This document shows, one piece after another, positions 43,137 to 61,468 of a stretch of DNA of 64,000 bases. The DNA comes from Fidelibacterota bacterium (GTDB taxonomy: Bacteria > Pseudomonadota > Alphaproteobacteria > Rhodospirillales > Rhodospirillaceae), in the NCBI GenBank assembly GCA_947475895.1, contig CANJMF010000013.1, positions 1-64,000 on the forward strand, read 5' to 3'. The notes under the pieces were generated by a model, which saw only the letters and a list, made by a program, of their open reading frames with translations, made no database searches and was not told the DNA's origin. How positions within the stretch are numbered: position 1 is the first letter of the stretch; each line of letters begins with the position of its first letter. Position numbers and translations under genes: made by a program.

Positions 43137-43268
43137 AGGAACCCCACGCCCCTGAGTCAGTTTCTTACCCCGTTGGACGAGATATAACCCACAAAGTCTT
43201 TGAATTACAGGGGATTCTCCGGTCGTTTTGAGTAGCGACGTTTAACACCCTGGTAACGGTCTTTCAGA

Positions 43269-58773: not shown

Positions 58774-58850
58774 GTCGCATCACTTCGAACACGCCCGGAT
58801 TGAAGGCGGCGCGAATCCTTCACTCCCATTTTTCGCCTGGCGCAAAAAGG

Positions 58851-58884
58851 AAAAGCGCGACTTTGCAGTCGCGCTTTTCTATTT
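58851..58884. terminator. Symmetric Rho-independent terminator
   Basis: AAAAGCGCGACT and AGTCGCGCTTTT form a perfect 12-base-pair stem with loop TTGC, followed by a T-rich run on the plus strand. It most likely terminates mnmC. The A-rich left flank means that it could also work from the opposite side. Confidence 0.85.
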
Positions 58885-58903
58885 TTCAGTGAGGCTTGAT
58901 TGG

Positions 58904-58997
58904 GAAATTCAGGTCAGAGCCGATGTTTTCGGGGTTCCATCAGGCGCGGACGGGCGAACATCGATGGGTCGAAAGCCCCGACCCTGACCTCAATTTC
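58904..58997. repeat. Long imperfect inverted repeat, possible structured RNA
   Basis: GAAATTCAGGTCAG (58904-58917) and CTGACCTCAATTTC (58984-58997) pair over 14 bases with one mismatch. Inside, CGATGTT (58921-58927) pairs with AACATCG (58957-58963). The arms could fold into a branched structure about 94 bases long. It could be an ncRNA, a decayed mobile element or chance. Confidence 0.45.
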
Positions 58998-59047
58998 CTG
59001 CTGTTTTCTCTGCCGCCTCGTGTGTTCTGCGTTTTTCCGGAAAAAGA

Positions 59048-59112
59048 TCTTCTCCCGCTTGCCCGGGGGACCGCCTTGCGGCGGTGCGTGGGCCGAGCAA
59101 AGCGGGAGAAGA
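59048..59112. repeat. Dispersed-type palindromic repeat element
   Basis: TCTTCTCCCGCTT (59048-59060) and AAGCGGGAGAAGA (59100-59112) are a perfect 13-base inverted repeat. Inside are GCCC/GGGC and a tight hairpin ACCGCC-TTGC-GGCGGT. The CTTCTCCCGCTT arms resemble short palindromic repeats scattered between genes in many alphaproteobacteria. No second copy is in the window. Confidence 0.65.
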
Positions 59113-59224
59113 CAAAACCTCACGTATCGCCGGGGTAGGATATGACTCGTGGACAGCGATAGATGAGGCCGGATCACAAAGTTTTTGAACACGGTCTCGA
59201 GGTTGGCATGTGCGAATAAGGGCG

Positions 59225-59253
59225 TTGCACTCCTGAATAAATGTGGGAATAAT
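59225..59253 (+). promoter_or_regulatory. Putative sigma-70-type promoter overlapping palindrome 1
   Basis: TTGCAC (59225-59230) and AATAAT (59248-59253) are separated by 17 bases, the ideal -35/-10 spacing. The -10 element lies inside the first 17-base palindrome, so a protein bound there would block transcription of the DUF6502 gene. Predicted by eye. Confidence 0.4.
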
Positions 59254-59259
59254 TCCCAC
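59243..59259. promoter_or_regulatory. 17-base palindrome, copy 1 (putative operator)
   Basis: GTGGGAATAATTCCCAC is a perfect palindrome around its central A. An identical copy lies 63 bases downstream, six helical turns away, so both sites face the same side of the DNA. Both are upstream of the DUF6502 gene. Confidence 0.7.
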
Positions 59260-59305
59260 GAACAAGAGCAACCTACTCAGCTACTAAGGGTGAGTCAATA
59301 AAAAA

Positions 59306-59322
59306 GTGGGAATAATTCCCAC
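59306..59322. promoter_or_regulatory. 17-base palindrome, copy 2 (putative operator)
   Basis: Identical to copy 1 and ending 19 bases before the ATG of the DUF6502 gene, where bound protein would also hinder transcript start or ribosome access. The exact duplication with helical phasing argues for a regulator that can loop or stack between the sites. Confidence 0.7.
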
Positions 59323-59341
59323 AACCCTGTATAAAGACTTC

Positions 59342-60220
59342 ATGGCAAAGAGCGCGACGCCCACCGGACCATCCAAGCCTTTGGTGGCAGCTGTTAAACA
59401 GCTGCTGCGCCCGTTTGTGCGCCTGTTGATTTCAAAGAGCCTCGGCCTTCCAGCGCTGACACAGATCCTCAAAGAAGTTTATGTGGAAGTCGCGCTCAAC
59501 GAATTCCCGGTCAACGGTAAGAAGCAGACAGACAGTCGCGTGAGCATTCTCACGGGTGTGCACCGAAAAGATGTGAAGCGCCTTCGCGATGCCGAATACG
59601 AACCGATTGTCGCTCCAAAGAGCATTGGTTTAGGCGCGCTCGCAGTTGCGCGTTGGCTGGGATCGAAAGAAACCACTGATAAAAATGGCCTTCCGCTGCC
59701 TTTGCCGCGTCAGTCCGAATCGGCGAAGGGGCCGTCCTTCGATGCGCTGATTGAGGGCATCTCAAAAGATGTTCGCCCGCGCGCCGTGCTTGATGAGTGG
59801 TTGCGCTTGGGCGTCGCGCGCTTAGATAAGGACGGTCGTGTGGTTTTGAACGAACTCGCCTTCATTCCCGAAAAAGGATTCGAAGAAAAGGCGTTCTATC
59901 TCGGACGCAACATTCACGATCACTTGGCGGCAGCGGCCCACAACTTATTGGCCGAGGGCAACCCACAACTCGAGCGCAGCGTTCATTATAGCGATCTGAC
60001 GCCCGAATCGGTTGAAACCCTCAATGACGCCGCCGAACGGGCAGGAATGCAGGCCTTGTTAGCCATCAACCGGATGGCACTAGAGCTAGCGGCGAAAGAT
60101 AAAGGCCGCGACGACGCTACCAAAAGAGTTAATTTCGGCCTATATTTCTTCAAGGGGCCGAGTACTTTCAATAGCTTACGTCTCGACGACAGTAACGTTT
60201 CAGCGAAGCCGAAAGCGTAA
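59342..60220 (+). CDS. DUF6502 family protein
   Basis: 292 residues from ATG 59342; a longer reading would start inside palindrome 2. KQLLRPFVRLLISKSLGLPAL, LKEVYVEVALNEF and DSRVSILTGVHRKDVKRLR are the DUF6502 N-terminal pattern, which looks like a winged-helix DNA-binding head. The rest is helical with no catalytic motif. A transcription-regulator role, possibly acting on the two palindromes upstream, is inferred. The next gene, a DUF5666 lipoprotein, follows 51 bases later and is a recurrent neighbour of this family as I recall it. Confidence 0.82.
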   Translation: MAKSATPTGPSKPLVAAVKQLLRPFVRLLISKSLGLPALTQILKEVYVEVALNEFPVNGKKQTDSRVSILTGVHRKDVKRLRDAEYEPIVAPKSIGLGALAVARWLGSKETTDKNGLPLPLPRQSESAKGPSFDALIEGISKDVRPRAVLDEWLRLGVARLDKDGRVVLNELAFIPEKGFEEKAFYLGRNIHDHLAAAAHNLLAEGNPQLERSVHYSDLTPESVETLNDAAERAGMQALLAINRMALELAAKDKGRDDATKRVNFGLYFFKGPSTFNSLRLDDSNVSAKPKA

Positions 60221-60271
60221 CGTGTCGGATTGCCATGGGGGCAATTCGCTAAAGGGCATTTGAGACCGGCA

Positions 60272-61468
60272 ATGTACGGGGATAGTGCGATCAAGGTCGG
60301 CGTGCTGCTGCGCGGGCTGGGAGCAAGTGTGCTCCTGTGCCTCGTATCCGCATGCGCGAGCGCACCCCCGTCTTCTTCGCCTTTTGCACCAGCATCTCAG
60401 GCGCCGTCCGCAGAAATGCAGACCGCCTCGATGGCGCCGCGCAAAGATAAGGGCGACGGCATTGGCGGTACGGGCTTGCGCCCCAACCCACATGGCGATG
60501 GCATCGGCGGCACGGGCATTGTCGGAACGATCTCGGGCTTCGGCTCGATTCTCGTCAACGGCCTGAAGCTCGAATTCAATCACAGCACGACCGTGGAAAG
60601 TGATGGCAAGCCTACCGCGCTCGACGAACTGCGCGTCGGCCAAGTGATCCAGGGTGTTGCGCATACCGTCGACGGCAAACTGCATCTTGAGCGGCTTGAA
60701 ATTCAACACGCCGTCAGCGGACCGATCAGCACCATCGACTATGCGACCGAAACCATGACCGTGCTTGGCCAAAAGGTGAAACTGAACCTTGGCGGCGATG
60801 CGGCCGCGGTCGAAGCCTTCAAGACGTTACAGAAGGGCGACATGGTCAGCATTTCTGGCCTGCGTCAGGCGGACGGCACTGTGGTCGCAACGCGCGTTGA
60901 TCAGCGCCGCAACGACGGACGTATCGTTGTGCGCGGCGATGTGACGAGCGTGACGGCGACCAGCGTGCGCATCGGCGATCTCGATATCCCCATGGGCACG
61001 GCGACCATCATGACGCTGCCGCAAACCGGCGGCCGCGTTTATGCATCAGGCCGCATGATCAACGGACAATTCGTGGCCGACGTCATCGGCGGTCTGCCGG
61101 TTCAGCCATTCGGAGCCGACGTGACGGACGTGTCGTTGGAAGGCTACGCGCCGCCCGCGGGCCAGCCGCTGAAGCTCAATGGTATGACCGTTGACGGCGC
61201 ATCATTGCCCGCAGGCGTCACACCGAACGACCGCATCGTCGTCATGGGCCATGTGGATGTGAACGGCCACGTGGATGCCACAAGCATCACCAAAGGCCGC
61301 ACCGTCGTAAGCCTTTTGCAGGCACGCGGCTCGAAGCGGCCTATGTGGGAACGCGTCGAGCGTCCCGAACGCGTGCGTCCGCCCGAGCGCCCTGAGCGCC
61401 CCGAACAAGCTGTGAAACCGGAAAAGCCAGAGCGTCCGGTCATCGAGCGCCCGACCGCCACATCGTAA
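60272..61468 (+). CDS. DUF5666 lipoprotein
   Basis: 398 residues from ATG 60272. The signal peptide ends in a lipobox (LVSAC, Cys28). An eight-residue motif GDGIGGTG occurs twice (61-68 and 75-82). Several beta-rich DUF5666 repeats follow (GTISGFGSILVNGLKLEF, ALDELRVGQVIQG, MVSISGLRQADGTVVATRV). The tail is a Pro/Glu/Arg repeat (RPERPERPEQ). Probably anchored in the outer membrane. Function unknown; likely cotranscribed with the DUF6502 gene. Confidence 0.85.
   Translation: MYGDSAIKVGVLLRGLGASVLLCLVSACASAPPSSSPFAPASQAPSAEMQTASMAPRKDKGDGIGGTGLRPNPHGDGIGGTGIVGTISGFGSILVNGLKLEFNHSTTVESDGKPTALDELRVGQVIQGVAHTVDGKLHLERLEIQHAVSGPISTIDYATETMTVLGQKVKLNLGGDAAAVEAFKTLQKGDMVSISGLRQADGTVVATRVDQRRNDGRIVVRGDVTSVTATSVRIGDLDIPMGTATIMTLPQTGGRVYASGRMINGQFVADVIGGLPVQPFGADVTDVSLEGYAPPAGQPLKLNGMTVDGASLPAGVTPNDRIVVMGHVDVNGHVDATSITKGRTVVSLLQARGSKRPMWERVERPERVRPPERPERPEQAVKPEKPERPVIERPTATS

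Follow-up and report, generated by a model that had tools for sequence, protein, structure and literature searches.

Twin palindromes as predicted operators of a probably autoregulatory DUF6502 protein and of a putative divergent structured RNA in an alphaproteobacterial genus

In the window analyzed here, a stretch of 64,000 nucleotides from the alphaproteobacterial contig CANJMF010000013.1, the gene encoding a protein of the DUF6502 family is preceded by two identical 17-bp palindromes. We consider it likely that the DUF6502 protein binds these palindromes as a dimer through a helix-turn-helix at residues 64–82, and that it regulates both its own DUF6502-DUF5666 operon and a divergent transcription unit. 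Judged from sequence comparison, it is very probable that the product of the DUF6502 gene recognizes the palindromes lying before that gene. Autoregulation had been proposed in a first-pass annotation of this DNA, and the proposal is now strongly supported by the conservation of the sites, by their exclusive location and by the covariation of protein residue 74 with one operator base. The divergent RNA and this apparent residue-base code were both absent from that annotation and are new in this analysis. The features of the locus are as follows.

59041–59263, minus strand: RNA1, predicted divergent structured RNA of ~220 nt (start placed by reference to the -10; the covariance model matches 59041–59214)
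59048–59112, minus strand: intrinsic terminator of RNA1, whose 13-bp stem leads into a T run; covariation is seen in relatives
59243–59259, no strand: predicted operator 1, GTGGGAATAATTCCCAC, covering ~+5 to +21 counted from the predicted minus-strand start
59270–59275, minus strand: -10 of the proposed minus-strand promoter, TAGGTT, 17-bp spacer; TAnnnT in 27/30 loci
59293–59298, minus strand: -35 of the proposed minus-strand promoter, TTGACT; TTGACN in 29/30 loci
59306–59322, no strand: predicted operator 2, identical to operator 1, with 7 bp between its end and the -10 proposed for DUF6502
59330–59335, plus strand: -10 of the proposed DUF6502 promoter, TATAAA, six bases before the ATG (start site inferred)
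59342–60220, plus strand: DUF6502 gene, 292 aa, predicted regulator (PF20112, E 1.5e-33)
59531–59587, plus strand: predicted helix-turn-helix, residues 64–82 (model helices 64–71 and 75–82; conservation; covariation)
59561–59563, plus strand: codon of His74, within the predicted helix-turn-helix
60272–61468, plus strand: DUF5666 gene (PF18914), probable lipoprotein judged by eye, likely in the same operon

The two copies of the palindrome are identical and lie 63 bp apart from start to start, exactly as first described, and the second copy, which had been placed just before the start codon, indeed ends 19 bp before the ATG. When the window was scanned with up to three mismatches, four palindrome matches were obtained (the two sites on both strands) against 0.15 expected, and 0/100 shuffles reached four. 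A search of the 3.3 Mb genome for further copies, as the first-pass annotation had suggested, was carried out with GTGGGAATNATTCCCAC at up to two mismatches, and the twin sites were the sole matches.

The DUF6502 protein scores 116.2 bits with the Pfam PF20112 profile, against a curated cut-off of 27. This Pfam entry gives no function; DUF6502 and PF20112 are mentioned nowhere in the literature library searched, and nothing among the papers listed there concerned a system of DUF6502, operator and RNA1. The DUF5666 gene was matched by PF18914 (E 2e-15) on the frame 60230–61465, and its start, an internal ATG, was placed by eye. On the other side, upstream of DUF6502 and on the same strand, lies a gene with Methyltransf_30 and DAO domains, the two domains of MnmC, which we take to be mnmC. 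At 58849–58890, between mnmC and the divergent RNA unit, the sequence GCGCGACTTTGCAGTCGCGC was seen by eye to form a strong hairpin flanked by T runs on either side, which probably terminates transcription in both directions.

For comparison, 156 loci were gathered by protein similarity (80 named loci, the best 80 of 555, together with 76 others), and 143 of these were retained after 13 duplicates had been dropped; L070, a second fragment of the gene of L069, was left out. Since the scan patterns for related loci required His or Gln at the key position, residue 74, and the best 80 of 555 were taken, the His (H) and Gln (Q) classes are over-represented. A DUF5666-like ORF follows DUF6502 in 84/143 loci.

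A promoter-like sequence on the minus strand was found between the two sites in 30/30 loci of the alphaproteobacterial group, these loci being related to each other and the hexamer positions taken as the best match. Its -35, which reads TTGATA in the single exception to TTGACN, is located 6–9 bp from site 2, the spacer is 16–18 bp long, and the -10 ends 7–11 bp from site 1; TTGAC and TA...T stand out in the 30-locus alignment too. The set omits L027, which lacks a site, and L088, which has RNA1 but a single site at 12/14 positions; L190, a later addition, duplicates L080, one of the 30 loci. Given this geometry, the transcript from the minus strand would have site 1 at ~+5 to +21. In the plus-strand direction, site 2 is followed in the 30 loci by a -10-like hexamer, most often 7 bp after it, and the start codon, as chosen by script, lies 17–24 bp after site 2 in 14/30 loci and 39–67 bp after it in the other 16/30. 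Because only six bases separate TATAAA from the ATG, the DUF6502 mRNA is probably leaderless. No recognizable -35 belongs to this promoter, and the expected place for one falls inside the palindrome. A consensus promoter scan of the locus returned 0 promoter-like sites and thus also misses both promoters proposed here. The promoter put forward in the first-pass annotation, TTGCAC-17-AATAAT with its -10 inside copy 1, did not hold up: it was likewise unlisted by the scan, its spacing, compared by eye, varies among relatives, and its TTGC is part of the conserved 5' stretch of RNA1 on the opposite strand.

Bound to the palindromes as a symmetric dimer, DUF6502 would occupy the -35/spacer region of its own promoter at operator 2 and the early transcribed region of the RNA1 unit at operator 1. 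The simplest reading, and the most likely one, is that the bound protein represses both its own gene (through site 2) and RNA1 (through site 1). Divergent autoregulators of the lambda cI / TetR type likewise have paired operators, and the DUF6502 locus resembles them in the placement of such operators over divergent promoters and in the apparently leaderless mRNA of the regulator. It differs from them in that DUF6502 belongs to another protein family and that the divergent product is a predicted structured RNA here, and secreted-looking repeat proteins or an alpha/beta hydrolase elsewhere.

These other arrangements were seen outside the 30 loci, where 41/114 sites are directly followed by GTCAA, that is, by the -35 of a minus-strand promoter that has the palindrome as its 17-bp spacer, as exemplified by TTGACA-17-TATACT in L126. 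In 30 of these 41 a hexamer with at least four matches to TATAAT stands where the -10 would be expected, three offsets having been tried and the best one taken. The genes divergent from DUF6502 in such loci (15 read, ten scanned) encode small secreted-looking repeat proteins or an alpha/beta hydrolase. Low-complexity, secreted-looking proteins with RRED or GGPGTNWENPPGP repeats were read on the upstream minus strand of L108, L126, L054, L134, L160 and L033, and a Pfam scan of these repeat proteins, with L160 read but unscanned, gave no family over the cut-off.

DUF6502 might instead activate one of the two promoters, for example its own, and this stays in consideration since the -10-like hexamers after operator 2 are accompanied by no -35-like hexamer. 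We nevertheless regard activation as unlikely, given that operator 2 spans ~-36 to -20, a usual position of a repressor, and that neither hexamer is lacking in the minus-strand promoter, where the site follows the start here and fills the spacer elsewhere. A different mechanism of repression, suggested as plausible in the first-pass annotation, is DNA looping, in which one DUF6502 oligomer bridges the twin sites with about six helical turns looped out between them. The spacing of 61–66 bp in 30/30 loci, with 63 bp (6 x 10.5) as the commonest value (9/30), fits such a loop. However, this range covers half a helical turn, and the distance between the sites is fixed by the intervening promoter with its spacer of nearly constant length, so that the spacing is already explained by the minus-strand promoter and looping is unneeded to account for it. 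Outside the 30 loci, moreover, neighbouring sites are 27–71 bp apart in 39/45 cases and 93–160 bp apart in six, no helical period is visible in these distances on inspection, and many loci have a single site. Looping is therefore quite improbable, and repression of both promoters by the bound protein is retained as the preferred reading.

The minus-strand promoter appears, on sequence evidence, to make a previously undescribed small RNA, RNA1, for which a covarying structure, a promoter (as a pattern only), a terminator and no conserved ORF were found. According to the 30-locus alignment, RNA1 comprises the site-1 hairpin, GGAGCGTAGCAACC, GAGACCGTGTTCAGG, a hairpin around CCCACGAGTC..TCCTACCCC and the terminator CTTCTCCCGC/GCGGGAGAAG followed by T; the long loop of this terminator falls outside the terminator scan. 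Across the 30 sequences, 97.0% of the cells of the 26 pairs are paired. Changes on both sides occurred in 12/26 pairs, compared with 5.1 in shuffles, of which 0/500 were as high, and with 1–4 in slid controls. These changes are distributed as 7/13 in the terminator, 4/6 in the inner hairpin and 1/7 in the operator stem, the last in one sequence. Thus, in the operator stem it is the sequence rather than the pairing that is kept, as for a DNA site.

This distribution bears on the possibility that the palindromes work at the RNA level, as hairpins or as minus-strand terminators, and not as DNA sites. The terminator scan does list a minus-strand stem at each palindrome, the one at copy 2 being followed by a T run, and the 5' hairpin of RNA1 is probably formed by copy 1; but no minus-strand gene evidently ends at copy 2, and the operator stem shows far fewer both-sides changes than the two other helices, which makes this explanation very unlikely. 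The palindromes are accordingly treated here as predicted DNA sites.

RNA1 had no Rfam match up to E 1. A small protein gene was considered and rejected, as indels break the frame of a short ORF starting MPTSRPCS and no ORF is common to the 30 sequences. A repeat was rejected too, RNA1 being single copy in the genome. With 6S RNA (RF00013) it shares a similar length, a structured nature and a single copy, but an identity with 6S was rejected, as no RF00013 match was found at RNA1 and 6S sits elsewhere in relatives: among 16 genus genomes searched, eight carry a 6S match on a different contig, six of them above the family cut-off, and the own genome has none. Beyond the RNA1 terminator, a second conserved structured element, RNA2 (58899–59002, minus strand as aligned), was observed. 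It forms a long stem, GAAATTGAGGTCAGG/CCTGACCTCAATTTC, with the loop GCCCGTC, and 9/20 of its pairs changed on both sides in an alignment of 21 sequences from 21/30 loci, the element being not found or not cleanly delimited in the other nine. RNA2 had no Rfam match.

DUF6502 is present in 25/61 genomes (the own genome and 60 relatives), with 40 genes altogether. One gene per genome (25 genes) has the predicted recognition helix TGVHRKDV, and the other 15 genes have TGLQ(R)(K/R)DI. A covariance model of RNA1 without the operator part matched 24/61 genomes, namely 24/25 with DUF6502 and 0/36 without it, each time opposite the H-class DUF6502 gene; the stricter filters of this search lose weak matches. 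Since most of these copies are rows of the model (including that of G035) and the rest were already in the alignment, the informative part of this result is the absence elsewhere. When 28 further loci were searched (Gln-class paralogues, other taxa, L027 and L088), only L088 was positive. A weak match to part of the model at 43143–43176 of the window (E 0.04) is probably due to chance.

The sites follow the same genes. GTGGGAANNNTTCCCAC occurs exactly twice in 18/19 genus genomes, and by coordinates each pair precedes the H-class DUF6502 gene. A wider regulon in the genus was looked for with exact GTGGGAANNNTTCCCAC matches, and none of these lies away from the DUF6502 locus in these 18/19 genomes. 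The nineteenth genome (G018) has the DUF6502 gene but no site and no RNA1; its upstream region joins the end of mnmC directly (by eye), possibly an assembly fault. Within the palindrome, the seven-base arms are nearly fixed, whereas the central three positions vary freely and are rich in A/T.

Among the wider set of loci, a site with at least 12/14 fixed positions was found no more than 300 bp upstream of 99/122 unique H-class (His74) loci, leaving 23/122 without one, and 111/122 reach at least 11/14. At the 12/14 cut, in-gene windows gave 0/122 and shuffled upstream regions of all 143 loci gave 5/2860. By contrast with the H-class, 0/21 loci of other or unread class reach 12/14 (10 Gln, 5 Thr, 2 Pro, 2 Asn and 2 unread), and three of the 10 Gln loci reach 11/14 of the His-type site. 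These class counts predate the addition of nine further Gln-class loci, of which two (L193 and L196) match the His-type pattern at 12/14. Site-bearing loci belong to the Alpha-, Beta- and Gammaproteobacteria and to records titled Deltaproteobacteria, Myxococcales and Binatia. The first-pass annotation had named absence of the palindrome before DUF6502 genes in relatives as grounds for abandoning the proposal; the palindrome is kept there, and it is absent elsewhere in the genome, the pattern of a dedicated operator. With regard to record titles, L098, titled Klebsiella pneumoniae, groups with an uncultured gammaproteobacterium, and several CAN* 'Marinimicrobia' records belong to the alphaproteobacterial genus of this DNA, their MAG labels being probably wrong.

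The relation between residue 74 and the operator was examined by searching for GTGGG-N7-CCCAC at 9/10 positions with base 6 left free, after the nine Gln-class paralogues had been added. The H-class yielded 168 sites in 91/122 loci, in which base 6 of the half-site is A in 310/336. The Gln-class yielded 17 sites in 11/19 loci, with base 6 being T in 22, C in 7, G in 5 and A in 0 (n=34), and 8/19 Gln-class loci had no site at the 9/10-position cut. Ten of the 17 Gln-class sites are GTGKGT...ACMCAC, and genes with Gln74 mostly carry GTGGGTNNNNNACCCAC. In a tree with residue 74 masked, a quick one with a long-branch warning that includes the second Gln lineage, Gln requires two changes, the second lineage being L171 and L172. 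These two loci, which fall below the 9/10 cut, have ATGTGT...GCACAT, base 6 again being T or C (by eye). Within their family, f49, the H-class genes L058, L065, L164 and L169 have ATGGGA...TCCCAT. Thr-class loci were also read by eye: L151–L154 have TTGGGA-N6-TCCCAA or near forms ~20 bp or less before the ATG, which make up a third, more widely spaced type of operator, and the fifth Thr-class gene has ATGTGC...GCACAT.

That DUF6502 itself reads the palindrome is best supported by the covariation of residue 74 with operator base 6, with the number of independent events being few because the genes are related. A reading in which the palindrome belongs to some other regulator, with DUF6502 as no more than its target, is conceivable in that DUF6502 binding is a prediction, but it is highly improbable, since exact sites occur nowhere else in 18/19 genus genomes, the sites track DUF6502 across classes, and base 6 tracks residue 74 of DUF6502. 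Binding by DUF6502 therefore remains our reading of the sites.

An AlphaFold2 model built with 80 sequences (mean pLDDT 88.1, pTM 0.77) places a winged-helix-like part at residues 133–169 after the predicted helix-turn-helix, together with long helices at 180–202 and 221–253, which plausibly serve dimerization. Foldseek against the PDB gave no match at E<=0.001, and no PDB fold match was convincing. In a second structural comparison, residues 34–90 resemble the helix-turn-helix parts of sigma factors, TrpR and TetR-type proteins, and residues 90–176 resemble winged helices. Among the matches listed, most non-HetR rows are single helix-turn-helix or winged-helix domains with Z under 7, and entries of HetR, the cyanobacterial heterocyst regulator, are the only ones spanning nearly the whole model (~12–273), at Z 6.0–6.9 and rmsd ~11. 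The best of them, 4j00_A (Z 6.9, 219 residues, rmsd 11.1), is below the trust level of the tool, a Z under 8 possibly reflecting merely a common arrangement. An hhalign comparison of A5 with residues 1–116 of two HetR sequences found no similarity, and no HetR chain appeared when PDB sequences were searched with a profile at an E limit of 10. HetR binds, as a homodimer, both the promoter of its own gene and an inverted repeat of 17 bp, GAGGGGTCTAACCCCTC (PMC4649674, PMC4192349), so that a 17-bp inverted repeat and a site at the own promoter are common to HetR and to the DUF6502 locus, where binding is predicted. The HetR target, however, requires GGG-N5-CCC (PMC4649674), and the conserved DUF6502 sites are GGG-N7-CCC. 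Kinship of DUF6502 with HetR is kept as a structural lead only.

Taken at its widest, the reading joins a His74/Gln74 family code, insulated paralogues and a feedback circuit with a new small RNA whose promoter is clamped between the operators, and we lean somewhat towards it. A family annotated only as unknown gains a likely function as a sequence-specific autoregulator, together with a predicted site, a candidate specificity switch and a putative target RNA, and a candidate small RNA family unmatched in the searched Rfam release is added. The proposals on function, site and specificity can be tested in standard assays. If the code reading is true, one residue (His74 or Gln74) against one base pair would set the specificity and insulate paralogues in the same cell, and DUF6502 would represent a widespread, undescribed family of transcription factors.
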